A model generated the notes under the pieces. The model searched no databases. It was not told the origin of the DNA and was given only the letters and a program-made list of their open reading frames with translations. From a virus, in the IMG/VR virus record IMGVR_UViG_3300031673_000285, positions 1 to 33,133 of that record: a stretch of 33,133 nucleotides of DNA, one strand, 5' to 3'. The translations under genes were made by a program, and so were the position numbers. Positions 3,871 to 23,812 of this stretch are shown here, one piece after another (the stretch's first letter is position 1; every line of letters starts with the position of its first letter).

Positions 3871-4806
3871 ATGAAAAAATTTAGAAAAACAGAAGATGGA
3901 CTTTTTATATGTGAAGAGTGCAATAAAACATTTGTTAAAAAATTTAGTTTAAGTAATCATTTATTTTATAGTCATAAAAATATAAGTAAAAAAGAATATT
4001 TTGATAAATGGTTAAAAGATGAAAATGATGGTAAATGTATAATATGTGGAAATGAAACAAAATTTATCAGTTTAGTTGGATATAAAACATGTTGTAGCGC
4101 ACAATGTGGTTATGATTATAATCATATACAAATAGATAAAGCAGTTTTAGAAAAATATGGAGTAAGCAATATTTCAAAAATACCGGAAATTAAAATAAAA
4201 AAAGAAAAAACCTGTTTAAAAAATCATGGAGTTAAAGCAGGATTCGCAGATGTAGAAAAAAGAAAAATAACTATTAATAAAAAATATGGATGTGATAATG
4301 TATTTCAAAATGAAGAAATTAAAGAAAAATGTAAACAAGCACATTTAAAAAACTTGGGAGTAGAGTATCCGTTACAATCTCAATTCGCTAAAGATAAATT
4401 TAAATTTACGTGTATTAAAAAATTTGGAGTTGAAAATCCTTCTCAAAATAAAGAAATTTTTGAAAAAGGACAAAAAACTAGATTAAATTTAAAACAATAT
4501 AAAAACACAAAAATTTATTATAGAGGTTCTTATGAATTTGATTTTCTTGAAAATTTTTATGATAATCATTCAGATATTCAAAATGCAAAGGGTATAAAAT
4601 ATGAATTTGAAGGTAAAAGTCGAATGTATTTTCCCGATTTTTATATTCCATCACTAAATCTTATAATAGAATGTAAAAATTCTTATTTATATGAACGTTA
4701 TAAAGAAAATATAGATATAAAAGAAAAAGCTACTATTGCTAGTGGCTTTAATTACATTATGATTTTGGATAAGAAATATGATGATCTGTATAATATTGTT
4801 CTTTAA
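3871..4806 (+). CDS. Free-standing homing endonuclease, PD-(D/E)xK type with zinc fingers
   Basis: A 311-residue product. Residues 1-40 carry a C2H2-like finger (CEEC...H...H). Residues about 55-80 hold a second Cys cluster (CIICG ... CC..QC). Then come repeats of the type KYGV.N..Q, which in phage and HNH/Vsr homing enzymes serve as DNA-binding modules. The C-terminus (about 217-300) is a nuclease domain: RGSYEFDFLE, YFPDFYIPSLN and IIECKNS give the E...PD...ExK signature. A close relative lies at 16601-17398. The gene opposes its neighbours, its 3' end overlaps the phosphatase gene by 50 nt, and it has an unusual Shine-Dalgarno-like AAGGAAAG before the ATG. All three fit recent insertion of a mobile gene. 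Confidence 0.8.
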   Translation: MKKFRKTEDGLFICEECNKTFVKKFSLSNHLFYSHKNISKKEYFDKWLKDENDGKCIICGNETKFISLVGYKTCCSAQCGYDYNHIQIDKAVLEKYGVSNISKIPEIKIKKEKTCLKNHGVKAGFADVEKRKITINKKYGCDNVFQNEEIKEKCKQAHLKNLGVEYPLQSQFAKDKFKFTCIKKFGVENPSQNKEIFEKGQKTRLNLKQYKNTKIYYRGSYEFDFLENFYDNHSDIQNAKGIKYEFEGKSRMYFPDFYIPSLNLIIECKNSYLYERYKENIDIKEKATIASGFNYIMILDKKYDDLYNIVL

Positions 4807-5269
4807 GTAATCTAAAAATATGATAATTTAAAGAACATCTTGGTGAATGTTTTATAATATTATCTTTTTTATCATTAAAAAAATCATAAATGAATAAACC
4901 TATAGAATAGCTCCTACTGATCCCCGCGCCACAATGTAACACGACCATACTTTTGTCCTTATTTTTCTTAATGAATTCATATAATTTTTTTGCTTTATAT
5001 TCATTGAACATATTACAGGAAGCTATTCCCATTTCAATATATTTTTCTACTGTATTTTCTCCGTAATCTGGAAAGTGCATGATCATGACATTTGAATGTT
5101 GACGTTTAAAATACGAGTATACATCGTTCTTCCCCATAAGCGCTCTTCGCTCACATGGATTATTTATAGAAATAAACATCATATCTTTAGTCTCAACATT
5201 ATCATTAGTAATCATGTTATAATCCATAAATTTATTAAATTCTCTTTTATTTAGAATCAGTATTTTCAT
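4757..5269 (-). CDS. Protein-tyrosine/dual-specificity phosphatase-like protein
   Basis: A 170-residue protein with the CX5R phosphatase loop VLHCGAGISRS (C113 nucleophile, R119) and a plausible general-acid loop FPDYGEN (D68). This is the cysteine-based phosphatase fold, whose members act on phosphoproteins, inositides or, in some viruses, RNA 5'-triphosphates. Its start lies inside the end of the RNA ligase 1 gene (23-nt overlap), suggesting translational coupling. That pairing makes an RNA-end substrate worth considering, but this is inference. The 3' end overlaps the convergent homing endonuclease by 50 nt, so the C-terminus may have been altered when that gene inserted. Confidence 0.75.
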   Translation of the reverse strand: MKILILNKREFNKFMDYNMITNDNVETKDMMFISINNPCERRALMGKNDVYSYFKRQHSNVMIMHFPDYGENTVEKYIEMGIASCNMFNEYKAKKLYEFIKKNKDKSMVVLHCGAGISRSYSIGLFIYDFFNDKKDNIIKHSPRCSLNYHIFRLLKEQYYTDHHISYPKS

Positions 5270-6422
5270 ATTTTTCCACTATGTGTTTTGCATTATACAA
5301 ATGTTTGGCCGCGTTTAACATATATGTAGTTTTATGTTTTCTGTATTCTTCAGGTTTTTCAATTTTCTTTCTTGCTAATCCAAAGAATCCTGACTTATGT
5401 TTATCAGTTGCAAACTTAGCCCAATTATTAAAGTAAAAAGAAGAATTATAGGTGTCTATTAATTCGTTTACATTTTCTTCAATATAATTAGACCAGCTAT
5501 TAACAGCTGTTTTAACTCTTTCAATAAATTTAAACGCATCTGCGTCATCAGTCATATTCAATTCCTGAGTAACATCATCTAAAGATTCTTCTAAGTAATG
5601 CTTTATAACGAAATCTTCTCTAAAAATATTCATAGTACGAATACCATGCAGATTAAAGTACCATACACATTTACATTTCACAAGTTGCCCATCTTCAAAT
5701 TCAACTACAACGCCTTCCATATCCTGTGCAGTTTTCATCATTTCATTAAGATAATATAACGATGACACATGCAATGAACTTACTGTAGGAATATCAGAAT
5801 ATAAATGATACGATGATGCAACTGAATAATAATTTCCATTTAAGTTATCACGCATACCAATTAAACGAAGTTCTTTCTTTGTATATTTCAGTACAATACG
5901 GTTATCGTATGATACATATTCAAATAAAGGAGTTAAGTTATCTTTAAGTGCTTCATCTACAACTTTTTTGATTCCATCTTGGCTGTTATATAATTGCATA
6001 GCAGCTATCGACTGTTCGTTTGTAAAACCAGCTTGAGTTTTTGCAAACACGGTTCCATCAGGTAATTGCATAAACGCAACTAAAGAACCGTCTTCTTTTA
6101 CAGTTATGTGTTTTATTTTTTTGTCTTTAAGAACGTCATACTGAGTTGATTCAACTTGATTAACATTGAAGAATTTCTTAAGCATCAAAAATCTTTTATA
6201 CAAAGTTCCATCGGCATTAAATACAAATGTAACTCCGCGCATATCAAAGGCGTTAATGTTTGGGTCATTGATTGGATCAATAAACATCTTATAATCACAC
6301 AAAAAATAGTTAAAAGTTACAATTCGATAATCGTTGATACGATGTTCGGTTTTATAAAAGTTGAAGTTCTTGTGAGCTTCACAAATTTTTAATGCATCTT
6401 CATATGTAATAAGGTAACTCAT
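5247..6422 (-). CDS. rnlA: T4 RNA ligase 1-like ATP-dependent RNA ligase
   Basis: At 391 residues it is close to T4 RnlA (374). Nucleotidyltransferase motif I is KEDGSL with K109 as the predicted AMP-accepting lysine, equivalent to the T4 motif KEDGS. Other motifs follow in order: a motif III-like PLFEYVSYDNRIVL, motif IV EGVVVEFEDG, and motif V VKCKCVWYFNLHG. T4 RnlA seals tRNA broken by the host anticodon nuclease. The same tRNA-repair role is likely here, because the window encodes a kinase-like protein, a HAD phosphatase and several tRNAs. It has its own promoter (6441-6464), and the phosphatase gene overlaps its 3' end. Confidence 0.9.
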   Translation of the reverse strand: MSYLITYEDALKICEAHKNFNFYKTEHRINDYRIVTFNYFLCDYKMFIDPINDPNINAFDMRGVTFVFNADGTLYKRFLMLKKFFNVNQVESTQYDVLKDKKIKHITVKEDGSLVAFMQLPDGTVFAKTQAGFTNEQSIAAMQLYNSQDGIKKVVDEALKDNLTPLFEYVSYDNRIVLKYTKKELRLIGMRDNLNGNYYSVASSYHLYSDIPTVSSLHVSSLYYLNEMMKTAQDMEGVVVEFEDGQLVKCKCVWYFNLHGIRTMNIFREDFVIKHYLEESLDDVTQELNMTDDADAFKFIERVKTAVNSWSNYIEENVNELIDTYNSSFYFNNWAKFATDKHKSGFFGLARKKIEKPEEYRKHKTTYMLNAAKHLYNAKHIVEKYENTDSK

Positions 6423-6440
6423 AATATTATTGATATATTA

Positions 6441-6464
6441 CAAATATAACAAAAATATCTGAAA
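6441..6464 (-). promoter_or_regulatory. Promoter for rnlA
   Basis: On the minus strand TTTCAG sits 16 nt upstream of TATATTTG. The motif ends about 19 nt above the ATG at 6422, so the leader is very short. Confidence 0.75.
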
Positions 6465-6492
6465 TAAAAAAATTAAAATGGATTAAAATGAA

Positions 6493-6831
6493 TTATTTTA
6501 AATCTTCTTTTCTTCCGGTGTAACGAATTAAGAAGTTGTAATAAAAATAAGAAGGATAAAAATAGCTAGAAAAAACAAAAGTATACATACTTTTTTCGTT
6601 TACAACTTTACGAATAATTTTTTGTTCAATAGATATAGTGTCAGTTATCATTTGATTTGAGATCCATTGATCTAAACTTATAGAGTCTACATTATAATAA
6701 TTTAATTGAGAATAAACATCTGTAATTGCTTCATTAACGTCAATATATCTTTGATAATATAAATTTCTTGTTATGTATTCATTACATGAAGTAAACAATA
6801 ATAAAACTAAAATAATAATAAATTTTTTCAT
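6493..6831 (-). CDS. Small predicted lipoprotein
   Basis: A 112-residue protein with a lipoprotein signal peptide: MKK, a hydrophobic run, then LLFTSC with the lipidated Cys at residue 16. The mature part is rich in Tyr, Asn and Ile and ends in a charged tail. No domain is recognised. The start overlaps the end of the membrane-protein gene upstream by 4 nt (ATGA), so translation is probably coupled. Phage-encoded envelope lipoproteins often act in superinfection exclusion, but nothing here shows that directly. Confidence 0.65.
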   Translation of the reverse strand: MKKFIIILVLLLFTSCNEYITRNLYYQRYIDVNEAITDVYSQLNYYNVDSISLDQWISNQMITDTISIEQKIIRKVVNEKSMYTFVFSSYFYPSYFYYNFLIRYTGRKEDLK

Positions 6832-7199
6832 TTTTTAACAAGTATTATACTAAAAAATAATTCAAATATAATTGTAAACGAACAATACAATATTATTATA
6901 TCTAACCACCAAACAATCATAGGATTATAAAATACTATTGAACCTACAAATAATAAAATCATTATAAATTTACATAAATGCCAAAAATCTGTAAGCCATA
7001 CAAATATTGTGCTTGATCCTAAAAATTTTTCACCTTTTTCAGGATCTCCGTCTTTCCATTTATTTCTCCATGAAAAATTTGGATTTACCCATAACTGATT
7101 TGGCCAATTTCTAAATATAGAAGTATTCCATCTAAATCTAAGAACATCCACACAAGCACTAAATATGCCTCCTAAAATTAATAGAATTAAAGAAATCAT
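6828..7199 (-). CDS. Small membrane protein, Trp-rich
   Basis: A 123-residue protein with an N-terminal hydrophobic segment (about 1-17), a polar Trp/Asn-rich stretch (FRWNTSIFRNWPNQLW, then FSWRNKW) and two C-terminal transmembrane segments (about 76-120). Its ATG overlaps the stop of the upstream gene by one base and its end overlaps the lipoprotein start by 4 nt. The three small envelope genes at 6493-7429 thus form a coupled set. Function unknown. Confidence 0.65.
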   Translation of the reverse strand: MISLILLILGGIFSACVDVLRFRWNTSIFRNWPNQLWVNPNFSWRNKWKDGDPEKGEKFLGSSTIFVWLTDFWHLCKFIMILLFVGSIVFYNPMIVWWLDIIILYCSFTIIFELFFSIILVKK

Positions 7200-7429
7200 T
7201 ACAAGCTCTTTATAGCATTAACAATTCCAGCAATAGTAAAAACTAAAAAAGTTAAAATAAGATATCCAAGTGATACTAATCCAACTACATTAAAAATACT
7301 GTGCAAAACACCTGTACTGTTTCTAACAACCAATACAGAAATGATCAATAACAGAAATGCAACGAGAATTTTTAGTAAACCATTTTTCTCAAACCAATTC
7401 TTGAAAAAATTAATAATCTTTATAAACAT
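7199..7429 (-). CDS. Small two-segment membrane protein
   Basis: A 76-residue protein with a short charged N-terminus (FFKNWFEKNG) and two hydrophobic segments (about 17-36 and 45-68). No family is recognised. It is the first gene of the 6493-7429 envelope set. Confidence 0.6.
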   Translation of the reverse strand: MFIKIINFFKNWFEKNGLLKILVAFLLLIISVLVVRNSTGVLHSIFNVVGLVSLGYLILTFLVFTIAGIVNAIKSL

Positions 7430-7448
7430 AGCCTTTTATTTTATTTAT

Positions 7449-7781
7449 TCAAAACAATTTTGTAGTATTTATTTTTCTTTCTGAAAATGGCATCAGAAAC
7501 ACCGGAGAGATGTAATAGTATCCTACTTTATAGTCAGCATATTTTACAGTTCTAATTTGCCAGTAAATTTTTTCAGTTCTTCCTTCAGGTTCAAGCCAAT
7601 GATAATAAAAGGGTTCTGGAGTTATTTCATTTGGAACTTTAGTATTAAAATGAGATTTTAATGGAACTAAAATTTGTTCTTTTGTAAGTTCAACATAAGC
7701 GCCTCTTCCACCATGAACTACTCTTTCAAAACCATTTGAAAATTGAGTACCATCTAAAAAATATAAACATATATTATTCAT
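7449..7781 (-). CDS. Conserved hypothetical protein beside the ATP-grasp enzyme
   Basis: The 110-residue product starts MNNICLYFLDGTQFSNGF. An in-frame ATG at 7799 would add six residues (MNGKNI). Both starts lie inside the 3' end of the ATP-grasp gene; the shorter one gives an 8-nt overlap, typical of coupling. The sequence has no signal peptide, and its most distinctive element is FERVVHGGRGAYVEL. The overlap suggests it works with the ATP-grasp enzyme, either as a substrate or as a partner domain. That is inference. Confidence 0.6.
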   Translation of the reverse strand: MNNICLYFLDGTQFSNGFERVVHGGRGAYVELTKEQILVPLKSHFNTKVPNEITPEPFYYHWLEPEGRTEKIYWQIRTVKYADYKVGYYYISPVFLMPFSERKINTTKLF

Positions 7782-8664
7782 TATATTCTTTCCATTCATT
7801 TAAAGCTGCTTCTGAAACTTTATCGACTATGATTTCTAAATCATTACCATACATTCCAGCACAAGAAAAACACCCAACTTCTAAAATTCCATAAGCATTA
7901 GAATTTATTTTAGCAACATCTATTGTATAACAGTTATCTGGATTATACATATTTGCACAAATTTCTGCTGCACTCAATGCATTTTTATCATTACATTCTT
8001 CATATACAGAATGAGAATTCAATAGTACATAGTCTCGAGTTATTGTTCCTGGATATATTTTTTCGGGTGCAGACCAATCTCTATAAAGACTTCCGCATAT
8101 AACTTCGCCATTAACTACCACAAATCTCCATTCTTTTTCAATATTATACACATCAGATACTACTACAAGCAAATCTGGCTCGACATCATAAAAACCTGCA
8201 AGTTTAATGCAATCTTCAAAATCATGTTTTTTAACTACCATTCCTGTGAATTGTTTGTTTCCTGAATTAGGACGTATAAAAATTTTATCATCATTAAAAT
8301 AACGATATAAATCATTTTTTCTACGTTTAACATCACCGTACGGCATCATCAAATAATTCGAATGAACAAGCGTATTTCCTAATACAGGATAATAACTTGT
8401 ACATTCAAATGCTTTTTCATTAAGATACACACCCGGAACCCAAGGAGTCTTTTTTAATTTACGGCCTAAACCTAAAGACCCATAAAAAATGACACAATCT
8501 TGTGGTTCATATAGAAAATTAATGCAATACTTAACTATATCTTCTGTACGAGAATCATCAATAAGATTAACTTTCATTCCTTGTTTTTTAATTTCTTTAA
8601 CAAGTTGTTCTTCGTTATCTTCGAATACATTAGTTTCTATTAACCATTTAGGTTTAGGTGTCAT
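7774..8664 (-). CDS. ATP-grasp enzyme, R2K (DUF4343)-like
   Basis: A 296-residue protein with the layout of the R2K clade of ATP-grasp ligases. An N-terminal domain is followed by FIRPNSGNKQFTG (about 129-141), then KEWRFVVVNGEVICGSLYR (about 177-195) with the Arg and Glu/Val pattern of the nucleotide-binding strand. A metal-binding region, TIDVAKINSNAYGILEVG, lies at about 242-259. ATP-grasp enzymes form amide bonds using ATP. R2K members are predicted peptide or protein modifiers and are known from phages, but the substrate is unknown. The stop of the segment at 8666-8863 lies one base before this start, and the downstream gene at 7781 overlaps its end. Confidence 0.75.
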   Translation of the reverse strand: MTPKPKWLIETNVFEDNEEQLVKEIKKQGMKVNLIDDSRTEDIVKYCINFLYEPQDCVIFYGSLGLGRKLKKTPWVPGVYLNEKAFECTSYYPVLGNTLVHSNYLMMPYGDVKRRKNDLYRYFNDDKIFIRPNSGNKQFTGMVVKKHDFEDCIKLAGFYDVEPDLLVVVSDVYNIEKEWRFVVVNGEVICGSLYRDWSAPEKIYPGTITRDYVLLNSHSVYEECNDKNALSAAEICANMYNPDNCYTIDVAKINSNAYGILEVGCFSCAGMYGNDLEIIVDKVSEAALNEWKEYNE

Positions 8665-8665
8665 G

Positions 8666-8863
8666 TCAATTTGTTTTAATTATCTGTTTAATTATAAATC
8701 TTTTATAATCTGGATTTGTAAATTCTAAAACATACCATAGTTTCTGATTGATATTCAAATATTTGTCTTTAAAAATAAATCTCCATTTTTTCTTTAATTT
8801 TCCTGGAACTCTTCTATAATTATAAAAGGGGCTGATTGTTTTTGATGTTGTGAAGTTCGTTTT
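8666..8863 (-). pseudogene. Open segment without a start codon; possible detached 3' part of the 8864-9040 gene
   Basis: Directly after the TAA at 8864, in the same frame, the minus strand stays open for 65 codons and stops at 8666, one base before the ATP-grasp start. The product reads TNFTTSKTISPFYNYRRVPG, then a Lys/Trp-rich stretch KLKKKWRFIFKDKY and PDYKRFIIKQIIKTN. It looks like real protein and tiles exactly between neighbours, but I see no ATG, GTG or TTG start upstream of the conserved-looking part. Either the preceding TAA interrupts a single 124-residue gene, or a non-standard start is used. Confidence 0.35.
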
Positions 8864-9040
8864 TTATAATTTTTTATTTTTAATCGCAATAACTAAACAA
8901 TAAGGAAATAATAAAAAATTAAGTAAAAATATTTTAATATAAGTTTGTGCTGACGATTTAAGAGAATAACAACTTTGTTTATACATAGAAAATATCCCCC
9001 ATATTAAACAAACAATTAAATATCCTAATAAAATTTTCAT
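8864..9040 (-). CDS. Small membrane protein (58 aa)
   Basis: A 58-residue product, MKILLGYLIVCLIWGIFSMY..., with two hydrophobic segments (about 3-19 and 35-53) separated by a polar stretch with two Ser/Lys pairs. Its ATG overlaps the TGA of the HNH-RNA ligase gene (ATGA, 9037-9040), the usual arrangement for coupled phage genes. This overlap is the main support. The frame continues past its stop into the open segment at 8666-8863. Confidence 0.55.
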   Translation of the reverse strand: MKILLGYLIVCLIWGIFSMYKQSCYSLKSSAQTYIKIFLLNFLLFPYCLVIAIKNKKL

Positions 9041-10164
9041 TTTAGTTCGTTTTTAATGATTTTTTGTTGGCTCCAATGACCATGATTCTGTTGGACGTGA
9101 TTTTTACGCACATATTTACCACAAACATTGCGAAATTCTGAATAGTGATATTCTCGAGATAAACGAACAACATATCCCTCAATTGTATTGGGGTTTGCTT
9201 TCATTTTTTTATTCAATTCTTCAATTACGTTTATATCCCATATTCCTTGATAAAATACAGGGACTAATGTAAGCTCAAGTAATTCAGCCCATTCTTCAGT
9301 TTCTTTCCAACTTAAGCACATATTTCTATCGTCCCAAATTGAGAACATATAGAAATAAGTACTTAGTGCATTTCCTTTTTCTTTTGTGTAATGAATAGCA
9401 TGTTTAGCAAACATATTTTCTCCGCAAACTCTCCAGCCCTCAGGAATGTTATATGCTTTTTGAGCCCATAGATTTTTTACCCAATTTCTTGATGGATGTG
9501 CGCCGCTATCAAGTGAACGACAGTGCATATAATCATTGTACCAAGTTGTGTTTTCTCCGTCGAGTTTCTCACATATCATAACCTTTTGGCCCTCAAATAC
9601 TTTAACATCTGTCATCATGCGGTCATCTCGATTCATTCCAGGGCTATAGGGAAGGTGGAAAGTTCTTGGATATTTAATCCTATTACCAAACGTGTTAAGT
9701 ACCGGAGAAAGCACTTTTTGAACAGATAAGTCGTTGAATAACTCACCCTTTACTCTCGTGCCATTCGGCATTATTTCATTTCCCCATTTGTCGTATTCAA
9801 CATCTGTGTAAAAATGAGGTGGAAGAATTATGTTTATAATACCTGCTGCTTTACGAATCTCATCACATGAAAGCTGAGTCGATTCAGCCAAAAGATGATG
9901 CATTTCACATAACGATGCTCCATTATCTATATAATATCCACCATCAGGAAAGAGTCGACGTTCGATAATGTGATGAACATCCTTTGCTGGCTCTTTACAA
10001 ATGACACAGAGATGACCGTCACGTTCAAAAACGGACCGCCGAAAGTCATCTCGTGTCATTAAATTTTTCATTTTATGTTTTTCAGTTAATTTTGTCAATG
10101 TACGCATTAAATTATTCCACCAAGATTCAAAACGAATTTTATGAAATTCATTTTTTATTTTCAC
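9037..10164 (-). CDS. HNH domain fused to an RNA ligase
   Basis: A 375-residue two-domain protein. The N-terminal part (about 38-95) is an HNH module: C53-x2-C56, H64-H65, N81, C86 and H89-H90 in LCVICKEP, DVHHIIE, DNGAS and LCEMHH. The C-terminal part (about 160-360) is an Rnl2-like RNA ligase: motif I EKLDGENTTWY with K200, motif III-like RVCGENMFAKHAI, motif IV TIEGYVVRL (from about 327) and motif V GKYVRKNH. Ligases of this class seal nicked RNA using ATP. The HNH part may cut, or may only bind metal and nucleic acid. The start overlaps the upstream gene by 17 nt; a later start (MKNLMTRDD, residue 32) would keep both domains intact. Confidence 0.85.
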   Translation of the reverse strand: MKIKNEFHKIRFESWWNNLMRTLTKLTEKHKMKNLMTRDDFRRSVFERDGHLCVICKEPAKDVHHIIERRLFPDGGYYIDNGASLCEMHHLLAESTQLSCDEIRKAAGIINIILPPHFYTDVEYDKWGNEIMPNGTRVKGELFNDLSVQKVLSPVLNTFGNRIKYPRTFHLPYSPGMNRDDRMMTDVKVFEGQKVMICEKLDGENTTWYNDYMHCRSLDSGAHPSRNWVKNLWAQKAYNIPEGWRVCGENMFAKHAIHYTKEKGNALSTYFYMFSIWDDRNMCLSWKETEEWAELLELTLVPVFYQGIWDINVIEELNKKMKANPNTIEGYVVRLSREYHYSEFRNVCGKYVRKNHVQQNHGHWSQQKIIKNELK

Positions 10165-10519: not shown

Positions 10520-11020
10520 TTATCTACAAAGCGCGTCGGCTGTATGAGTTGCTACATATGCATGAGGTTTTCCCTCTGCATGATAACCCATGCCAGAAAG
10601 ATATCCAAGACCTGCGGCGAACATTATGTTTGACTTGTCTTTAGCGTTATTGCTATAGTCAAGGTGAAGAGTGATACGCTTCTTAAAAGTTTCATCACTT
10701 CCGTCAACCATTTGTGCCACAGCAAGTACAAACTCAGCTTCTTTCCAAAGCTTTGAAGGCATTTCTTCAATCGGAGACCTGGTCTTACGCTTTTCCCAAA
10801 CGTCAGATACAATAACATGTCCACCGTGACCAACACCCATTCTGTCAATGTAATGCATAACAATAGCAACAGAGTACTTGATTCTGCGTCCATGCATCTG
10901 TGAGTCACAGCCAATGATAACATTTCCGTATGGATTTTCTTTAGTCCAATCTTTTACATATTTTTCAATGTTTTCAATGACCTCTCCAGTTAATTTCTTG
11001 AATATAAGTGTGTTTTCCAT
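10520..11020 (-). CDS. YkuK-type (DUF458) RNase H-like protein
   Basis: The 166-residue product starts MENTLIFKKLTGEV at an ATG at 11020, 8 nt below the upstream stop codon; the longer open frame would overlap that gene. The pattern IIGCDSQMHGRRIKYSVAIVM, an acidic strand followed by Q.HGR, is characteristic of the Bacillus YkuK/DUF458 family, which has an RNase H-like fold. Further acidic residues sit in LHLDYSNN. The family's enzymatic role is not settled; a nuclease or nucleic-acid-binding function is likely. It is followed by the 10487-10515 hairpin. Confidence 0.75.
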   Translation of the reverse strand: MENTLIFKKLTGEVIENIEKYVKDWTKENPYGNVIIGCDSQMHGRRIKYSVAIVMHYIDRMGVGHGGHVIVSDVWEKRKTRSPIEEMPSKLWKEAEFVLAVAQMVDGSDETFKKRITLHLDYSNNAKDKSNIMFAAGLGYLSGMGYHAEGKPHAYVATHTADALCR

Positions 11021-11027
11021 TATCTTT

Positions 11028-11249
11028 TTATTTAAATTCCATATTAAAGTTTTTATTTTTACGCATTTTGATGTGCACAATCTTTTTCTTATCAGGAATT
11101 GTACGTGTTTTAAATCTTCCGTCATAAAAGCCCTGTGATACGGCTGAAGCTCTATTTTGAGCCTGTATTAATTTATATAATTTAGATACCATCTTTTTAT
11201 AATTTTTTTTCTTTATTCCACGATACCTTTTCTTTTTGGTTATATTCAT
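11028..11249 (-). CDS. Small, strongly basic protein
   Basis: The 73-residue product starts MNITKKKRYRGIKKKNYKK at 11249, one base after the upstream stop (TGA at 11251), so I prefer this ATG to the earlier in-frame ones. About a third of residues are Lys or Arg. It contains SKLYKLIQAQNRAS and ends with KMRKNKNFNMEFK. The composition suggests nucleic-acid binding or a virion-packaged protein; no domain is recognised. Confidence 0.55.
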   Translation of the reverse strand: MNITKKKRYRGIKKKNYKKMVSKLYKLIQAQNRASAVSQGFYDGRFKTRTIPDKKKIVHIKMRKNKNFNMEFK

Positions 11250-13075: not shown

Positions 13076-13462
13076 ATGGAAAAAACACTTATCATAGTAA
13101 GAGGTTTACCTGGGTCAGGTAAAAGTACTGTTGCAGAATTGTTAGGAGATTATATTTGTACTGCAGATGATTATCATATGAAGAATGGAAAGTATGAATG
13201 GAAACGTGAAAAAGTAGCTTTTGCTCATCTTAAATGCCAACAAAAAGTTAATGATGGAATGAAAAAAGGAATTGAACGTATTATAGTAGCAAATACTTCA
13301 ACAACTGAAAAAGAAATGGCTCCATATTATATCTTAGCGGGCATGTTTAAATATAAGGTATTTTCAATTATCGTTGAAAATCGTCATAATGGCGTTAATA
13401 CTCATAACGTGCCTGAAACTACATTAGACGCTATGAAAAATCGTTTTGATATTAAACTTTAG
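13076..13462 (+). CDS. P-loop kinase, polynucleotide-kinase / N4BP2-like
   Basis: A 128-residue protein with Walker A at the N-terminus (RGLPGSGKST, residues 9-18), ADDYH in the acceptor-binding position (about 29-33), AFAHLKCQ, the strand IIVANTSTTEKEMAPY, and a C-terminal VPETTLDAMKNRFD. This order matches the kinase domain of N4BP2-like proteins and of T4 polynucleotide kinase, without the phosphatase domain. T4 Pnkp prepares broken RNA ends for RnlA. A 5'-OH kinase role is likely here, with the HAD protein at 23339 as a possible 3'-phosphatase. The separation into single-domain proteins is unlike T4. Confidence 0.75.
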   Translation: MEKTLIIVRGLPGSGKSTVAELLGDYICTADDYHMKNGKYEWKREKVAFAHLKCQQKVNDGMKKGIERIIVANTSTTEKEMAPYYILAGMFKYKVFSIIVENRHNGVNTHNVPETTLDAMKNRFDIKL

Positions 13463-15919: not shown

Positions 15920-16615
15920 ATGTATATGAAAATTGTAGTTAATACAGAAAATGTTGATCTATATAATACTTTTTCTCGTTTAGGAAAAGATTTAAATTAT
16001 CAGATCATTAATGCAAAAGTTGAAAGTGTACTTTTTGATACCATTGAAAAAAATAATGTTGATGCATATGTTCTTTCAATTTTTACTCCTTTTTTTAAAA
16101 GGGCTGTAGAATTTATTAAAAAGAATAATTCTTATATACCTATAACAGCAATTATTCCTCATGGAAATATTACACCCGATATTCCTGTTGATATGTATAT
16201 TGTACATGTACAAAACGAATCATTTGATGTACTGGCAAATTCAATATTTTATAATATAAATACGTATATAAAGTCTTTTGCAACTCTTAAGAAACTTACA
16301 GCAAAAATACATGATAAAATTGAGTTTGCAATGTGTGTATATGACCCTACTCGTAGACTTCTTTATCATAAAGGAAAGGAAATAAAAAGACTTTCCGCTA
16401 AAGAGGGCGGAATTCTTGAAGTACTTGCGTCAAATTATGGACAAGTGGTTAAGAAAGAAGTTATTCTCGAAAAAGTGTGGCGCAAAACAGATTACTTCAC
16501 TGGAAGATCTTGTGACGTATATATAACTTATCTTCGTAATACCTTGAAGAACAATAAAATAAAATTAACTATTAAAAATATTTCCGGAATAGGATTAATT
16601 TTAGAAAGTATCTAA
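15920..16615 (+). CDS. OmpR/PhoB-type DNA-binding regulator with degenerate receiver domain
   Basis: A 231-residue protein; an ATG two codons later (15926) is equally likely. Residues 1-120 alternate strand and helix like a response-regulator receiver. However, the phospho-acceptor position in DAYVLSIFTP is Ser53, not Asp, and the conserved N-terminal acidic pair and late Lys are not evident. Residues about 145-231 are a winged helix of the Trans_reg_C type: RLSAKEGGILEVLASNYGQ, VVKKEVILEKVW, RSCDVYITYLRNTLK, INISGIGL-like wing. It probably regulates phage genes without a kinase partner. Upstream direct repeats suggest autoregulation. Its 3' end overlaps the convergent homing endonuclease by 15 nt. 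Confidence 0.8.
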   Translation: MYMKIVVNTENVDLYNTFSRLGKDLNYQIINAKVESVLFDTIEKNNVDAYVLSIFTPFFKRAVEFIKKNNSYIPITAIIPHGNITPDIPVDMYIVHVQNESFDVLANSIFYNINTYIKSFATLKKLTAKIHDKIEFAMCVYDPTRRLLYHKGKEIKRLSAKEGGILEVLASNYGQVVKKEVILEKVWRKTDYFTGRSCDVYITYLRNTLKNNKIKLTIKNISGIGLILESI

Positions 16616-17398
16616 CTTAGAATAATCTTTATTAACAATCATAATATATTGAAAGCCATTAGCGGTAGTGGCTTTTTTCTTTTCTTCTATTTGTTCTTTA
16701 TCTTTTTCTGCGAGATATGAATTTTTACACTCAACAATCAAATTTAAAGAAGGGATATAAAAATCTGGATAATATACTTTATTTTTGTTTTTAAAATGAT
16801 ACTTAATAGAAGGACCGTTTTGAATATCAGGAAATTTATCATAAAATTTTTCTAGAAAATCAAATTCATATGAACCTCTATAAAAAAGTTCTGTATTTCT
16901 AAATTTTTTACAATTATATCCAGATATCTGAGTTTTAAAAAATGTTCTTTTAATTTGCAATGGATTTTCACAATCATAACGTAATAAAAATGTATTTTTC
17001 TTTTTAATATTTAATATATCTGATTGACCTGGATTACTTACGCCCCATTTATTTATCATAGATTGTTTTTGTTTATTATTAATGTTTTTATTTTGTAATG
17101 GATATTCTACTCCATATTTTTTAATACATTCTTCTTTTGTTCTATTATGTTTATATAAATTTTCACACTTTTTACAACACGTGCTTTTATAACCCAATTT
17201 TATATCTCGAAATATAGTTGGTTTACCACATATTTTACATTTTTCTTCATCAATATCTTTTATCCATTTATCAAAATATATTTTTACACCAGCATGAGTC
17301 ACATTAATATGCTTACTTAATCCACAACGCCTTTTTGTGATTAACCCACATTCTTCACATATAAAATTTCCGTGTGTATTTATTCTAAATTCTTTCAT
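16601..17398 (-). CDS. Second zinc-finger PD-(D/E)xK homing endonuclease
   Basis: A 265-residue relative of the product of 3871-4806. It has the same N-terminal finger (FICEECG ... LSKHINVTHAG), YFDKWIKD, a second Cys cluster (CKICGKP ... CCKKCE) and KYGVEYPLQ / KWGVSNPGQ repeats. The nuclease domain is nearly the same: FYRGSYEFDFLEKFYD, YYPDFYIPSLN, VECKNSYL. It has fewer KYG repeats than its relative, hence the shorter length. It runs against all neighbours, and its last codons overlap the regulator's 3' end. Free-standing homing endonucleases spread by cutting relatives that lack them. Confidence 0.8.
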   Translation of the reverse strand: MKEFRINTHGNFICEECGLITKRRCGLSKHINVTHAGVKIYFDKWIKDIDEEKCKICGKPTIFRDIKLGYKSTCCKKCENLYKHNRTKEECIKKYGVEYPLQNKNINNKQKQSMINKWGVSNPGQSDILNIKKKNTFLLRYDCENPLQIKRTFFKTQISGYNCKKFRNTELFYRGSYEFDFLEKFYDKFPDIQNGPSIKYHFKNKNKVYYPDFYIPSLNLIVECKNSYLAEKDKEQIEEKKKATTANGFQYIMIVNKDYSKLDTF

Positions 17399-17687: not shown

Positions 17688-17690
17688 AAA

Positions 17691-18026: not shown

Positions 18027-18050
18027 TAAAATGAATAATAATATTTAATT

Positions 18051-18356: not shown

Positions 18357-18366
18357 TTTATAAAAA

Positions 18367-18570
18367 ATGAAAAGCAGTTTTATTTATCAGGGATATCGTA
18401 TTGATGTTTTTGAAACAAAAACAGATTACAGATATAATATTAAAGATAAAAATGAAAAATTAATTATTGAATCTGCTATAGGATTTCCATTTCCTTATGA
18501 TGCTGAACTTCAAGCTAAATTATACATAGATAGAATAATTAAAAATAAAGATGGTTGGATTATAACATAA
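18367..18570 (+). CDS. Small hypothetical protein
   Basis: A 67-residue protein: a beta hairpin (FIYQGYRIDVFETKTDYRYN) followed by a helix with ELQAKLYIDRIIKN. Short proteins of this plan (strand-rich N-terminus, then a helix ending in ID.I) are common in Bacteroidetes phages, but the role is unknown. Confidence 0.55.
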   Translation: MKSSFIYQGYRIDVFETKTDYRYNIKDKNEKLIIESAIGFPFPYDAELQAKLYIDRIIKNKDGWIIT

Positions 18571-18600
18571 ATTTTTTAATTATATAATTAAAAATATTAT

Positions 18601-18903
18601 ATGAAGCCCTTTAATGAAATGACATCAACAGAAATTAAAGCTCTGTCTAAAGAAGAATTTGACAATATATCTCCTTTTGATAAACATAGTTGTTATGATT
18701 GCATATATCTTAAAGGATTCATCAACATCTGGTGTACTAATAAAAAAGCAATCCAGTATCGTAATACAGCTATTCCAGGAGTAATAAAATGTATATTTTG
18801 GGCTCCTAATTGGGATTGGATTGAAGATAAATATAGAACGCCAGAAAATGGATATGTTTCTCCTGTAAAAAAAGTTAAAAATTTGTTAAAGAATATTTTT
18901 TAG
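18601..18903 (+). CDS. Four-cysteine zinc-binding-like protein
   Basis: A 100-residue protein with HSCYDCIYLKG, IWCTNK and IPGVIKCIFWAPN, giving the pattern C-x2-C ... C ... C-x-F-W. The same plan appears at 11251-11454, so these may be distant members of one family. The N-terminus (MTSTEIKALSKEEFDNISPF) is a helical extension. The TAG stop is directly adjacent to the promoter at 18904. Confidence 0.6.
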   Translation: MKPFNEMTSTEIKALSKEEFDNISPFDKHSCYDCIYLKGFINIWCTNKKAIQYRNTAIPGVIKCIFWAPNWDWIEDKYRTPENGYVSPVKKVKNLLKNIF

Positions 18904-18927
18904 TGTCAGAAAAAATAGTTATATTTG
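18904..18927 (+). promoter_or_regulatory. Promoter directly after the 18601 gene
   Basis: TGTCAGA (18904) and TATATTTG (18920-18927) with standard spacing. The ATG at 18946 follows. Confidence 0.75.
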
Positions 18928-18945
18928 TATTATAATTAATTACTA

Positions 18946-19119
18946 ATGAAAAAAAGATATTTTATATTACTTAATAATAGTATCTGGAAAAATTGGAAAA
19001 CTGGCACAATATATTCTCAATATGCTTATGATGGTTCTATTATACATTACAGTGTTTTGTATGCTGCATTGTATAGTCCATATAAAAATCAATGGAAAGA
19101 AATATTTTTAAATAATTAA
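18946..19119 (+). CDS. Small hypothetical protein (57 aa)
   Basis: A 57-residue product, MKKRYFILLNNSIWKNWKTG..., rich in Tyr, Trp and Asn (TIYSQYAYDGSIIHYS). It starts 19 nt below a consensus promoter and ends 6 nt before the next ATG. No signal or domain is recognised. Confidence 0.55.
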   Translation: MKKRYFILLNNSIWKNWKTGTIYSQYAYDGSIIHYSVLYAALYSPYKNQWKEIFLNN

Positions 19120-19125
19120 AATCTA

Positions 19126-19428
19126 ATGAAAAAAGATAGAGCAAAACAAATAATTATTTCTGTTCTTCAAAAATCTCTTGTAGGACAACTTGATTCTTCA
19201 AATAATTTTAATCCTCAGTTTGTTGCAGACGCAATTGCTGATAAAGTTAACTTTGAAAAGTCTTATACTGACATCAAACATGAACTTCTTATTAAAACTA
19301 TCATAGCTGCTAAAAGTGAAATGAAAGTCAAAATGGCCGAACTTACTTCTGAACAAACTCTTCTTAAAAATTTTATTCACGGAAAATTAGCAGCTTATGA
19401 CGAAATTTTAAGTGCACTCAATATATAA
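19126..19428 (+). CDS. Helical hypothetical protein
   Basis: A 100-residue, mostly helical protein (RAKQIIISVLQKSLVG ... MKVKMAELTSEQTLLKNF ... LAAYDEILSALNI) with no transmembrane segment. The 3' end, including the stop codon, is part of a 38-bp tandem duplication. Function unknown. Confidence 0.55.
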   Translation: MKKDRAKQIIISVLQKSLVGQLDSSNNFNPQFVADAIADKVNFEKSYTDIKHELLIKTIIAAKSEMKVKMAELTSEQTLLKNFIHGKLAAYDEILSALNI

Positions 19429-19487
19429 TATAATGACCAAAAATTTTAAGCGCACTCAATATATAATATAATAACCAAAAATTTTAA
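19403..19487 (+). repeat. 38-bp tandem repeat (two full copies plus a partial third)
   Basis: Copies start at 19403, 19441 and 19479 with AAATTTTAA. The two full copies share CACTCAATATATAATATAAT and differ at only two positions. The first covers the end and stop of the 19126 gene; the second is non-coding. It looks like a recent slippage duplication. The remaining 19488-19535 shows nothing further. Confidence 0.8.
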
Positions 19488-19535
19488 TGTTCTACGTTTT
19501 GGAAATTTATTGAAAGATATTAAAAATAATAAAAA

Positions 19536-19793
19536 ATGAAAACACCAAAATTTGAATTAATGGAAACTAAAAAATTTGGGAATACATTTATTTTAACTAT
19601 ACGAATAAATAGATTATTTCGCAAATCAATAGAAAAAAGTTTTGTGCTTGATAAAGATGAAAAATATATGTTCGGTGGGCTAATATGGCACGTATTGCCA
19701 GATTTTGTTGAACTCAATAGATTTTCAAAAATTTATAAATTTTTAGAATCTCAAAGATTGCTTGATCATTATAATATAAAAAATATAAAATAA
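19536..19793 (+). CDS. Hypothetical protein
   Basis: An 85-residue protein, MKTPKFELMETKKFGNTFIL..., with a beta-rich first half and a helical end (FSKIYKFLESQRLLDHYN). It precedes the nucleotidyltransferase gene by 15 nt. No family is recognised. Confidence 0.55.
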   Translation: MKTPKFELMETKKFGNTFILTIRINRLFRKSIEKSFVLDKDEKYMFGGLIWHVLPDFVELNRFSKIYKFLESQRLLDHYNIKNIK

Positions 19794-19808
19794 TAATACA
19801 CAACAAAA

Positions 19809-20918
19809 ATGGCCTATACTATAAAAGAACTTCGTAAGAAGAAAATGATAATATTCGAAGCAATTGCTGGGAGCCATTCCTATGGAACTTCAACTCCTGA
19901 ATCAGATCGCGACATACGAGGTGTTTTTGTTCAGCCGCTTGAAGACGTTCTTAAGTATGGGTATGTTGAGCAAGTTGCAGATAAAACTAATGATGTTGTT
20001 TTTTATGAACTTGGTCGTTTTGTAAATCTTCTTATAGTAAATAATCCCAATATTCTTGAAATGCTATCAATGCCAGAAGATTGTATATTATATAAAGATG
20101 CGCAATTTGAAAAGTATTTTGAAAAAAACAAAGAAAAATTTCTTACGAAAAGAGTTCGTTGGACTTTTGCGGGTTATGCAATAGATCAAATAAAGAAAGC
20201 TCGTGGCTACAATAAGAAAATGAACTGGGAAGAAAAAGAAATGACTCGTAAAACTGTTCTTGACTTCTGTTATGTTCTTGTTGAAGGAGGATCAAAATCT
20301 TTTAAAGAATGGCTTAAGCCATATATGCGCTCAAATAATTGGAATAATATAAAAACTGCACAAAAGTATTTTGGACTTGCTAATATAGATCATGCGCATG
20401 ATCTATATGCAATGTATTTTAACAATGAAGATACTTGGGGAATAGTTTCTGATTCTGAAACTGCTAATGATGTTCAACTTACTTCAATACCTAAGAACTT
20501 AGAAGTAGAGGGTTATCTTTATTTCAATAAAGATGGATATTCATCTCATTGTTCAAAATACAAAGAATACCAGACTTGGCTTAAGGAACGTAATATTAAT
20601 CGTTTCAAGATGAATAAGGCTCATGGTAAGAATTATGATTCAAAGAACATGACACATACCTATCGTCTTCTTTCAATGGCTCATGAACTTGCAAAAGGAG
20701 AACTTCGAGTTCGTAGAACTCCTGAAGAAATAGAAAAACTTATGAAGATACGTAACGGAGAATATGAGTATGAAGATCTTCTTAAAGAAGCTGAAACTAT
20801 GATAGCTGGTCTTGATGAAGTCTTTGAAAAATCTACACTTCCAACAAAAATAGATGAAAAATATGTATTAGATATACTTTTTCAAATGCGTAAATTTTAT
20901 TATAATTTAAATATATAA
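19809..20918 (+). CDS. Pol-beta-type nucleotidyltransferase, COG3541/RlaP-like
   Basis: A 369-residue protein. The N-terminus AIAGSHSYGTSTPESDRDIR (residues 19-38) is the nucleotidyltransferase signature: GS followed by D33-x-D35. The spacing and the following GVFVQPLED match COG3541 predicted nucleotidyltransferases, a group that includes RlaP proteins linked to RNA-repair loci. The rest is helical, with KRVRWTFAGYAIDQIKKARG and THTYRLLSMAHELAKGELRV typical of the family's second domain. It probably transfers nucleotides to RNA ends or another small acceptor. Codons for Leu here use CTT more than in the small neighbours. The context of ligases and kinase supports an RNA role. Confidence 0.8.
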   Translation: MAYTIKELRKKKMIIFEAIAGSHSYGTSTPESDRDIRGVFVQPLEDVLKYGYVEQVADKTNDVVFYELGRFVNLLIVNNPNILEMLSMPEDCILYKDAQFEKYFEKNKEKFLTKRVRWTFAGYAIDQIKKARGYNKKMNWEEKEMTRKTVLDFCYVLVEGGSKSFKEWLKPYMRSNNWNNIKTAQKYFGLANIDHAHDLYAMYFNNEDTWGIVSDSETANDVQLTSIPKNLEVEGYLYFNKDGYSSHCSKYKEYQTWLKERNINRFKMNKAHGKNYDSKNMTHTYRLLSMAHELAKGELRVRRTPEEIEKLMKIRNGEYEYEDLLKEAETMIAGLDEVFEKSTLPTKIDEKYVLDILFQMRKFYYNLNI

Positions 20919-20920
20919 AA

Positions 20921-21295
20921 ATGAAAAAAATTTTATTAACTTTTAGTTTTATTTTATTGGTTGCGTGTAATACTAATAATGATAAATTTAAATATAGAAA
21001 TGGAGATTTTGCTAAAATTGAATTTAAAGATCTTACGCTTCTTTGGACTCATAACGCTAAATGCGCCGGAGATTCTTTATTGATTATTAAATCATTAAAA
21101 CAAAATTTTGATACTACTCTAGTACGTGTAAAAATTAATGATAGATATTATAGTAATCAATATTTAATTGCTGTTTATTTAATTTCTCCTTACGATAAAA
21201 ATGGACACATAATAAATATACCTAGAGTTAGAAGTTCATTTTTACATAATCTTGTTCCATATATTTTTGAAGAAAAACTTATAGATATTAAATAA
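20921..21295 (+). CDS. Small predicted lipoprotein
   Basis: A 124-residue protein with a lipoprotein signal, MKKILLTFSFILLVAC (lipid-modified Cys16), then the Asn/Asp-rich linker NTNNDKFK. The mature part is beta-rich with a second Cys in NAKCAGDS. It starts 2 nt after the nucleotidyltransferase gene. Function unknown; envelope location predicted. Confidence 0.6.
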   Translation: MKKILLTFSFILLVACNTNNDKFKYRNGDFAKIEFKDLTLLWTHNAKCAGDSLLIIKSLKQNFDTTLVRVKINDRYYSNQYLIAVYLISPYDKNGHIINIPRVRSSFLHNLVPYIFEEKLIDIK

Positions 21296-21300
21296 TTATT

Positions 21301-21846
21301 ATGAAACCCACGTTTAAAAGTCGCGAAAATAAAATTCATATAATTGATGGTAAAGAGATTTGGGAATCTCGATCTACTGCAGTATGTGCTGTAATACTTG
21401 CAATTAACAAAGATAACATATTTGTGTTGGGAGAAAAAAGATCTCAACATATGCCAGATGCAAAGGGCTTATGGGCAGTTCCATCAGGATATATAAATTA
21501 TGATGAAGATGGATGGGACGCAATGCGAAGAGAATGTTATGAAGAAACTTCGTTCGATGTTAACAAGTATAAAAAATATTTAATTTTTGATAATGATCAA
21601 GATTCCTTTTATACTCATACAAAACCTACTGAAAATAGACAAAATATCGTAGTATGGTATTGTCTTATTTATGATTTTTCTGATAAAGATTTACCAAGAG
21701 AAATTGAAGCTTATAAAGATAAAGAAATAGATAAAATTGAATGGATACCAATTGAAAAAGTGTTAACTTCTAAATATAAATGGTCATTTAATCACGATAT
21801 AAGAATTGAAAAGGCTGTACTTAAATTTGAAAAATATCTAATATAA
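21301..21846 (+). CDS. Nudix hydrolase
   Basis: A 181-residue protein with the Nudix box G63-x5-E69-x7-R77-E78-x2-E81-E82 (GYINYDEDGWDAMRRECYEE). The final Gly of the classical box is replaced (TSFDV). Nudix enzymes hydrolyse nucleoside diphosphates linked to another group, such as damaged dNTPs, NAD, ADP-ribose or capped RNA ends. T4 and other phages carry them. The substrate cannot be told. The last base of its stop overlaps the next ATG. Confidence 0.85.
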   Translation: MKPTFKSRENKIHIIDGKEIWESRSTAVCAVILAINKDNIFVLGEKRSQHMPDAKGLWAVPSGYINYDEDGWDAMRRECYEETSFDVNKYKKYLIFDNDQDSFYTHTKPTENRQNIVVWYCLIYDFSDKDLPREIEAYKDKEIDKIEWIPIEKVLTSKYKWSFNHDIRIEKAVLKFEKYLI

Positions 21847-22028
21847 TGAAAAAACAACAATCAAAAACTAAAATTCCTTATCTCGACTATATGTGTAAAG
21901 TAGGAGAAACTGTTCAATGGATAGATTTAACAGAAAAAAAATTTATAGGAAAACTTATTGCAATGGATGAAGATTCTCTTGCTACTGTAGAATTGAATGA
22001 TGGTTCTATTATTCATTATCAATGTTAG
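21846..22028 (+). CDS. Small hypothetical protein
   Basis: A 60-residue protein, probably a small SH3-like barrel (VGETVQWIDLTEKKFIGKLI, then ATVELNDGSIIHYQC). The ATG overlaps the Nudix stop by one base, so translation is coupled. Function unknown. Confidence 0.55.
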   Translation: MKKQQSKTKIPYLDYMCKVGETVQWIDLTEKKFIGKLIAMDEDSLATVELNDGSIIHYQC

Positions 22029-22095
22029 TTTTTTAAATTAACACTTTTTTAAAAAACTTACAATACATATTTACATAAAATATAAAAATATATAT

Positions 22096-23049
22096 ATGTC
22101 AGTTATTGCAGAATTATTTACAGAGAAATTCCGTCCAAAGGAACTTGCATCATTAATAGCGCCCGATAGAATTAAAACTGAATTATCTCGAGGTTTAATT
22201 CAGAATCTTTTATTACATGGGAGTGCCGGTACCGGAAAAACAAGTGCTCTATTTATTTTATCAAAGCCTTATACTTCACTTTATATTAATGCTTCTTCAG
22301 AACGAGGTATTGATATGCTTCGTGATAAAATTGGAAAATTTTGTGCAACTATATCTCTTGAAGGAGGAAAAGAAAAACTTAAGTGTGTTATCTTGGATGA
22401 GGTTGATGGTGCAACACCTGAATTTTTTAACGCATTTAAAGCATCAATGGAACGTTACTCGAATGTTGCAAGATTTATTGCTTCATGTAATTATATTCAA
22501 AAAGTTCCAGATGCTATACAATCTCGATTCAACTGCATTTCCTTTGATCCAATAAACACAGAAGAAGAAAAATATCTAATAGATGAATATAAGAAAAGAG
22601 TAGCATTAATTCTAAACGCCATCAAAATAACATATACTGGTAATATTCTTGAAAACTTTGTTAAAAATGATTTTCCGGATATGAGATCATTACTTAATAA
22701 ATTACAAAGTTTTTATCTTCAAGGTATTAAAGAATTGAATTCAAAAAATTATAATATTAATTTTGATTTTGAAGATCTATATAAACTTTGTTTCAATAAA
22801 CCAGATAAAGCATATGAAAATTATAAATTTATAGTTTCAGAATATTCAAGTAGAATAGACGATGCTTTGAATTGTTTAGGTCAAGATTTTATCGAATATA
22901 TTAAATCAAAAAATCCTTATAAAATTGAAAAAATTCCTTTAATTATTATAGCAGTTGCAGAACATCAGGCGCAAAGAACACAGGTTATCGATCCGTTAAT
23001 TACGTTGTTGTCACTGTGTTATAAAATTCAAATCATTATAAATAGTTAA
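22096..23049 (+). CDS. 44: Clamp loader ATPase subunit (T4 gp44-like)
   Basis: At 317 residues it matches T4 gp44 (319). Walker A GSAGTGKT is at 42-49, Walker B CVILDEVDG at 97-105, sensor-type FIASCN at about 127-132 and the clamp-loader signature SRF at 143-145. The N-terminal FTEKFRPKELASLI is the usual RFC/gp44 opening. Five-subunit loaders of gp44 and gp62 open the sliding clamp at primer ends. A gp62-like gene lies at 25278. No clamp gene or polymerase is in this window. Confidence 0.9.
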   Translation: MSVIAELFTEKFRPKELASLIAPDRIKTELSRGLIQNLLLHGSAGTGKTSALFILSKPYTSLYINASSERGIDMLRDKIGKFCATISLEGGKEKLKCVILDEVDGATPEFFNAFKASMERYSNVARFIASCNYIQKVPDAIQSRFNCISFDPINTEEEKYLIDEYKKRVALILNAIKITYTGNILENFVKNDFPDMRSLLNKLQSFYLQGIKELNSKNYNINFDFEDLYKLCFNKPDKAYENYKFIVSEYSSRIDDALNCLGQDFIEYIKSKNPYKIEKIPLIIIAVAEHQAQRTQVIDPLITLLSLCYKIQIIINS

Positions 23050-23080
23050 AAATATAGAAACACATATAAAATAAAAATTC

Positions 23081-23272
23081 ATGACAATAAATATTAACGA
23101 TAATTCAAATTTACTAATAGAGACTAAACCTATTATAAAAATTACAAAGATGTTAAACATAGAAGGATATATTTATGTAAAAGTGCCATATACAATAACC
23201 TGTGATTTAACCGATATTCCTCCAGAAAAACATGATATCGTTATTAAAACATTAATGACACTTTCAATTTAG
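23081..23272 (+). CDS. Small hypothetical protein
   Basis: A 63-residue protein, MTININDNSNLLIETKPIIK..., with strand-rich sequence and a final helix (EKHDIVIKTLMTLSI). No motif is recognised. It lies between the clamp-loader gene and the promoter of the HAD gene. Confidence 0.5.
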   Translation: MTININDNSNLLIETKPIIKITKMLNIEGYIYVKVPYTITCDLTDIPPEKHDIVIKTLMTLSI

Positions 23273-23310
23273 TAAAATTAACATCATTTTTATCCATAAA
23301 TATTTTCTCG

Positions 23311-23334
23311 ATTCAGAAATTTTAATTATATTTA
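23311..23334 (+). promoter_or_regulatory. Promoter placed to give a leaderless HAD mRNA
   Basis: ATTCAGA and TATATTTA (23327-23334) with standard spacing. The ATG of the HAD gene begins only 5 nt after the -7 element, where transcription should start. Confidence 0.65.
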
Positions 23335-23338
23335 TATA

Positions 23339-23812
23339 ATGAAAAAATATATCTATTTAGATATTGACGGAGTTTTAAGTTTAGGAAGTGAAATACACCC
23401 AAAACTTACAAAGTGGGGATATGTTCATAGATTTAATTCAAAGGCTGTTAAAATTTTAAATGAAATATTAAAAGAAACTGATGCAGAAATAATAATATCA
23501 AGTGATTGGAAAGATCATTATTCTTTAAAGGATTTACAAGAAATATTTTTAGAATTTGCTAATATTATTAAAGCGCCAATTGATATTACTGGTTCTTATC
23601 CATATAAAACATTACAATTATTAGAAGAAATTAGAGCAAATGAAATAATTAATCATGTTAATAAATTGAAACCATATTATTGGGTAGCTATAGATGATTT
23701 AAATTTAGTGGCATGGATTCCTGAAAGACATTTTATTTATACTCCATTGTTTATGGAAGGAATCAAACAAACAGGAAAGCGCGATGAAATAATACGTAAA
23801 TTAATGTTATAA
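23339..23812 (+). CDS. HAD-family phosphatase, RNA-repair (SAK) type
   Basis: A 157-residue protein with HAD motif I LDIDGVLS (D8, D10), motif II IIISSDW (Ser about 54) and a late acidic motif WVAIDDLNLVAW (Asp119-120). This short layout resembles the HAD domain of 'Swiss Army Knife' RNA-repair proteins. Such enzymes remove terminal phosphates. With the kinase-like protein at 13076 and RNA ligase 1, it would complete end-healing, as the phosphatase half of T4 Pnkp does. That role is inferred. The promoter abuts the start codon, so the mRNA is probably leaderless. Confidence 0.7.
   Translation: MKKYIYLDIDGVLSLGSEIHPKLTKWGYVHRFNSKAVKILNEILKETDAEIIISSDWKDHYSLKDLQEIFLEFANIIKAPIDITGSYPYKTLQLLEEIRANEIINHVNKLKPYYWVAIDDLNLVAWIPERHFIYTPLFMEGIKQTGKRDEIIRKLML

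Follow-up and report, generated by a model that had tools for sequence, protein, structure and literature searches.

Phages counter the attack of host RNases on tRNA by repairing RNA. In T4, where Pnkp and RnlA carry out tRNA repair, Pnkp consists of a kinase and a HAD phosphatase, and the ligase gp63 (Rnl1) also serves in tail-fibre assembly. Here we analyse a set of genes for RNA ligases, end-healing enzymes and a nucleotidyltransferase in a 33,133-base stretch of viral DNA (hereafter, the window), which makes up the whole of IMG/VR record IMGVR_UViG_3300031673_000285; the record is a fragment. Judging from its sequence, the region probably encodes a jumbo-phage RNA-repair module that heals and seals RNA ends.

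A survey that covered 224 jumbo phages has already described sets of this kind (Iyer et al. 2021, PMC7824862). The parts of that survey drawn on here present Rnl1, Rnl2, HNH-fused Rnl2 and polynucleotide kinases as one RNA-repair counter-defence, and they report that the distribution of the nucleotidyltransferase RlaP mirrors that of the ligases. HAD phosphatases are divided there into a Pnkp type and a stand-alone Swiss-army-knife type, the latter being the usual stand-alone phosphatase of jumbo phages, and HAD_SAK_2 and the Pnkp phosphatase are treated as separate HAD families. The same parts describe HD-like phosphatases in some phages, as well as phage tRNAs. The set in the window is this already described assemblage, so the novelty attached to it in an earlier note on this DNA is not borne out.

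RNA ligases, kinase and nucleotidyltransferase

The earlier note had named five open reading frames (ORFs), for two RNA ligases, a kinase, a HAD_SAK phosphatase and RlaP; all five are present, and profile searches place each protein in the family claimed for it. The first ligase, of the T4 RNA ligase 1 type (Rnl1), is encoded on the minus strand at 5247-6422 (Pfam RNA_lig_T4_1, E 2.5e-19; PHROG 562, E 4.8e-49), and its profile led to T4 RNA ligase 1 in a search of the PDB (E 4.4e-34). Its ligase motifs are complete (KxDG lysine, motif IV EG and motif V KxK), with K109, D111, G112, E168, E236, G237, K249 and K251 invariant in an alignment of seven relatives; here and below, catalytic function is judged from residue conservation alone. 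Because the protein scores 109.7 bits against an NCBIfam TIGR02308 equivalog cut-off of 242.25 bits, we classify it as a divergent Rnl1-type ligase rather than an equivalog of T4 RnlA.

The second ligase ORF, on the minus strand at 9037-10164, joins an HNH domain to an Rnl2-type RNA ligase (Pfam RNA_ligase, PF09414, E 4.8e-27, above the cut-off). PHROG 24030, “RNA ligase,” matches across both domains (E 2.3e-127), and the HNH domain is supported by itself by several PHROG HNH families (best 2.8e-10). The same architecture occurs in SCTP-2, CcrBL9, ME3 and others. Alignments with homologues begin at about residue 34-36, so the true start is probably not the GTG at 10164 but a codon 31-35 positions downstream of it.

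A P-loop protein of the polynucleotide-kinase type is encoded on the plus strand at 13076-13462 (AAA_33, E 1.2e-7; PHROG 2071, E 1.5e-40). Among solved structures, its profile matches T4 polynucleotide kinase best (E 6e-6) and then further RNA-end kinases, Pnkp1 among them, and K16, D31 (the catalytic Asp) and R103 are invariant among six relatives; we predict that it is an RNA 5'-OH kinase. The ORF, which at 128 amino acids holds a kinase domain only, stops behind that domain and lacks a fused C-terminal HAD 3'-phosphatase. The protein therefore matches, at the sequence level, the kinase half of T4 Pnkp and not the bifunctional enzyme, and its description as a stand-alone kinase holds. Single-domain kinases of this type have matches in 611 phage records.

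RlaP (RNA ligase-associated pol beta nucleotidyltransferase) is encoded on the plus strand at 19809-20918 (Pfam RlaP, PF10127, E 7.7e-20, 72.1 bits against a cut-off of 23; phrog_388, E 6.4e-47). The pol-beta GS...DxD residues G21-S22, D33 and D35, as well as E67, are invariant among eight relatives. Against the PDB, a search with the single RlaP sequence returned only a chance match to myosin, and a profile search returned no match.

Co-occurrence of the repair genes among related contigs

No DNA nearly identical to the window was found in phage records. Because scans of IMG/VR with single proteins returned few loci, we gathered relatives with the clamp-loader protein as the query, a choice independent of RNA repair; every contig compared is a fragment, and clade counts are small. 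Blast maps of the related contigs reveal a conserved order of fibre genes, an HD-domain gene (HD), a DSP/PTP-type phosphatase gene (DSP), Rnl1, kinase, a transcription-regulator-like gene, RlaP, Nudix, clamp loader and exonuclease. The order Rnl1, kinase, RlaP, HAD is common to related contigs, and the genes lie within one neighbourhood of ~21 kb. The set had been called dispersed, which does not fit an order conserved across ~20 kb.

We scored presence and absence in contigs that span the syntenic frame, with the window as G000. The kinase and RlaP are both present in six contigs (G000, G002, G003, G004, G006 and G007) and both absent from four (G005, G019, G020 and G022), a concordance of 10/10, and Rnl1 agrees in eight of the ten. 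Searches of the whole G005 contig found neither RlaP nor a phrog_2071 kinase; in G019, G020 and G022, whole-contig searches found neither RlaP nor Rnl1, and the kinase was judged absent from the surroundings of the locus alone. A tree built from nine flanking proteins has three changes of the kinase, each matched by a change of RlaP. The core of the set is the kinase with RlaP, usually accompanied by Rnl1, and its optional parts are the HAD gene and the HNH-ligase gene, the latter seen only in G000 and G003 among close relatives. These data separate core from optional parts, which the earlier note did not do. That note would have been refuted by relatives in which the genes never occur together, but relatives with them together do exist; its point that the kinase is joined by another ligase and by a nucleotide-adding enzyme also holds.

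The joint gain or loss of the kinase and RlaP, despite several retained genes between them, argues against an incidental collection of genes that serve no single pathway in a large genome, as does the existence of ORFs that fuse HD and kinase domains (see below). Large phages are indeed rich in such genes, with five PF09414 matches in LR745206, for instance, and the HNH-ligase and HAD genes are patchy; even so, we rate this explanation as very improbable. All five families occur in LR745206, and four occur in each of LR756502, LR756504, LR756511, CcrBL9 and XacN1, although this co-occurrence is not an unbiased rate, as the LR, CcrBL9 and XacN1 records were picked for matching one of the queries.

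Several observations weigh against a single repair module. Rnl1 is kept in G005 without the kinase and RlaP, and G007 keeps both of these without Rnl1. The tree holds only three kinase/RlaP changes, and the independent pairs with good support number two, which does not suffice for a significance test. The 405-kb contig G022 has HAD, DSP and RNase H-like genes at 373340-384918, and no Rnl1, PF09414 ligase, RlaP or RtcB was detected in the contig; RtcB was sought as an alternative ligase in the clade and was not found. The HD gene, proposed below as the source of the kinase's partner, is absent at the locus of G005, G007, G019 and G022, so that G007 keeps the kinase without HD at the locus, and G020 has HD without the kinase there.

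Because Rnl1 adjoins fibre genes in every relative that has it, we also considered that Rnl1 serves mainly in tail-fibre assembly in this clade and lies near repair genes incidentally. Its PHROG family is titled “RNA ligase and tail fiber protein attachment catalyst,” and in G005 Rnl1 still stands by the fibre genes with the kinase, RlaP, DSP and HD gone from the locus. However, its ligase motifs are fully conserved, and in G019, G020 and G022 the fibre genes are present although the locus has no Rnl1, which indicates that fibre assembly there does not need it. The nearness of Rnl1 and the kinase also recurs in unrelated phages; in Pseudomonas phage NoPa the kinase gene comes immediately after one for an RNA ligase, and in LR756511 it lies ~0.4 kb from Rnl1. 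A role confined largely to tail fibres is, in our view, quite improbable, and we retain RNA repair as the preferred reading of Rnl1.

Candidate partners of the stand-alone kinase

An HD-domain phosphohydrolase is encoded on the minus strand at 3147-3674 (Pfam HD, E 3e-6, 27.9 bits against a cut-off of 22). This gene was not part of the set in the earlier note. The protein matches the HD part of the CCA-adding enzyme weakly, its relatives match phrog_2244 tRNA nucleotidyltransferase, and one relative (L130) is fused to a PolyA_pol head, a tRNA/CCA-type nucleotidyltransferase. Among eight relatives, H45, H53, H76-D77, H99, H131 and D164, which include the H...HD...D metal residues, are invariant.

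Two huge phages join this HD family to the kinase family. In LR756508, one ORF of 330 amino acids, located 1.6 kb behind Rnl1, combines an HD domain (27% identity, E 9e-14) with a kinase of the window type (40% identity, E 2e-29). In LR756500, an ORF of 368 amino acids with an HD domain begins 2 bp behind the HNH-ligase gene and bears a kinase match at 24498-24962, with the P-loop visible in the sequence. At some of the other HD loci, the kinase lies within 8 kb (L142, L154, L155, L158 and L160) or RlaP within 2 kb (L146, L164 and L170). In the CCA-adding enzyme of E. coli, the HD domain acts as a phosphatase and as a 2',3'-cyclic phosphodiesterase. Based on the fusions and on this known activity, the HD protein appears a likelier partner of the split kinase than the HAD protein, and it may be a healing enzyme for 2',3'-cyclic-phosphate and 3'-phosphate ends.

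The HAD protein is a stand-alone HAD_SAK_2 phosphatase encoded on the plus strand at 23339-23812 (PF18143, E 1.2e-19, 71.4 bits against a cut-off of 27.5). Its DxD and DD motifs (D8, D10, D119 and D120) are invariant in three sequences, in which S55 is also conserved; a profile search of the PDB identified no solved relative. Since T4 Pnkp unites a kinase with a HAD domain, the HAD protein could be the kinase's phosphatase partner, with the two halves of Pnkp split into separate genes, as the earlier note had proposed. HAD_SAK_2 is named for RNA repair, and its type is the usual stand-alone phosphatase of jumbo phages in the portions of PMC7824862 used here; those same portions, however, place HAD_SAK_2 and the Pnkp phosphatase in separate HAD families. 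The HAD gene is present in G000, G010, G019, G020 and G022 and absent from G002-G007, so that five relatives keep the kinase without HAD (G002, G003, G004, G006 and G007), and three (G019, G020 and G022) have HAD at a locus that lacks the kinase, RlaP and Rnl1. Because the two genes vary independently and it is the HD family that is fused to the kinase, the HAD protein is unlikely to be merely the kinase's detached other half, and a split of Pnkp into these two genes is not supported; we consider it improbable. The HD protein remains our favoured partner of the kinase.

DSP phosphatase and RNase H-like gene

A DSP/PTP-type cysteine phosphatase is encoded on the minus strand at 4757-5269, in an ORF that overlaps the end of Rnl1 by 23 bases. 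The interval 4757-23812, to which the RNA-repair set had been assigned, does hold the five named genes, but its start belongs to this sixth, unnamed one. Across 26 relatives, D68 (the general acid), H112, C113, R119 and S120 are invariant, and the HCx5R loop is intact. All 26 aligned relatives match DSPc below 0.01, whereas the window protein itself falls under the curated DSPc cut-off (18.2 versus 33.5 bits).

The DSP gene stands behind Rnl1 in G001, G002, G003, G004, G006 and G024. Its closer companion is an RNase H-like gene (PF04308, E 2.2e-18) on the minus strand at 10520-11125, whose real start is probably near residue 36 (MENTLIF). The two are concordant, both present or both absent, in 12/12 scored contigs, and they also adjoin each other in a separate group of loci without Rnl1 (L077-L084); in G006, the RNase H-like gene, Rnl1 and DSP directly abut. 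The idea that DSP is the ligase's phosphatase is weakened, as the presence of DSP goes with that of the RNase H-like gene and not with that of the ligase, and DSP persists in contigs without Rnl1. In L072 (10001-11383, plus strand), a DSP domain lies within an ORF of 460 amino acids, the rest of which matches no Pfam family at E 0.01.

The persistence of HAD, DSP and RNase H-like genes in G019, G020 and G022 without Rnl1, kinase or RlaP, together with the DSP/RNase H-like concordance, is also consistent with a separate process unrelated to ligation, such as dephosphorylation of nucleotides or proteins in host takeover, and DSP profiles match protein phosphatases in the PDB. On the other side, DSP adjoins HAD_SAK in G033 and RlaP in L108, and PTP-SAK (Swiss Army Knife DSP domain), which takes its name from RNA-repair proteins, is matched, if weakly, by 9 of the 26 relatives. 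Outside the window clade, DSP lies nearer RNA-repair genes than uniform placement predicts (Fisher p 0.012), which is weak evidence, as lineages were grouped by hand after the data had been seen, the test excluded records that had no repair gene, and in some cases the positions of HMM matches stood in for gene ends. We regard a separate process as rather unlikely. Within the RNA-repair reading, DSP is a possible accessory phosphatase, a weaker additional candidate than the HD protein.

Genome context and other genes

Clamp-loader, exonuclease and fibre-like genes, together with tRNA genes, indicate that the window is part of a tailed phage. ARAGORN identified five tRNA genes on the plus strand at 32165-33062 (Cys, Gln-CTG, two Gln-TTG and Phe). 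For the window's Rnl1 and RlaP, the closest complete relatives come from huge uncultured phages with genomes of 634-642 kb, and contigs of 323 and 405 kb are among the relatives with the window's gene order; the window therefore likely comes from a jumbo-phage genome.

A DUF7487 homing-endonuclease-like gene lies between DSP and HD on the plus strand (3871-4806), and a second is present on the minus strand at 16601-17398. A homologue is found between DSP and HD also in G001 and G003, and not in G006 or G020. A Nudix protein is encoded on the plus strand at 21301-21846, and its gene is retained across most of the clade; its best NCBIfam match, RNA pyrophosphohydrolase, is far below the cut-off.

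Proposed pathway and comparison with known systems

In the pathway that follows, we infer what each enzyme does, which RNA it acts on, in what order the steps run and which defence is countered. The starting point would be a cut made in RNA by a host ribonuclease, most likely in a tRNA anticodon loop, so that one side ends in a 2',3'-cyclic phosphate and the other in a 5'-OH. Phosphorylation of the 5' end would fall to the stand-alone kinase, and clearing of the 3' end to a phosphatase, most likely the HD protein; the HAD protein, and perhaps DSP too, could act there as additional or alternative phosphatases. RlaP would restore a lost 3' nucleotide where needed, and Rnl1 or the HNH-linked Rnl2 would seal the break. 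The set could plausibly act on RNA broken in more than one way. Tentatively, and with more doubt than confidence, we suggest that an HD protein of the CCA-enzyme type replaces the healing half of Pnkp in trans with the stand-alone kinase, and that DSP and the RNase H-like protein form an end-processing pair, giving a phosphatase chemistry unlike that of T4. As for the earlier interpretation, the RNA-repair set stands, without the novelty, the dispersal and the division of Pnkp into kinase and HAD.

The window shares with the jumbo-phage assemblage of PMC7824862 the same Rnl1, HNH-fused Rnl2, kinase, HAD, RlaP, HD-like protein and tRNAs. It differs in its DSP-type phosphatase, a type not found by text searches of that paper; nor do the parts drawn on here contain a specific link between HD and stand-alone kinases. 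Like the Pnkp-RnlA system of T4, the locus combines an Rnl1-type ligase with a Pnkp-type kinase domain; unlike that system, its kinase has no attached HAD, and it has in addition RlaP, an HNH-linked Rnl2, a stand-alone HAD and an HD protein. The Swiss Army Knife (SAK) RNA-repair proteins are multi-domain, whereas the window HAD, which matches HAD_SAK_2, and DSP, whose relatives weakly match PTP-SAK, are single-domain. The HD-kinase fusions offer a specific, testable candidate for 3'-end healing in phages without a Pnkp-type phosphatase. In LR756508 and LR756500, the same HD family is joined to the kinase near Rnl1 or the HNH-ligase, whereas in the window HD and kinase are separate genes on opposite strands, ~9.4 kb apart.

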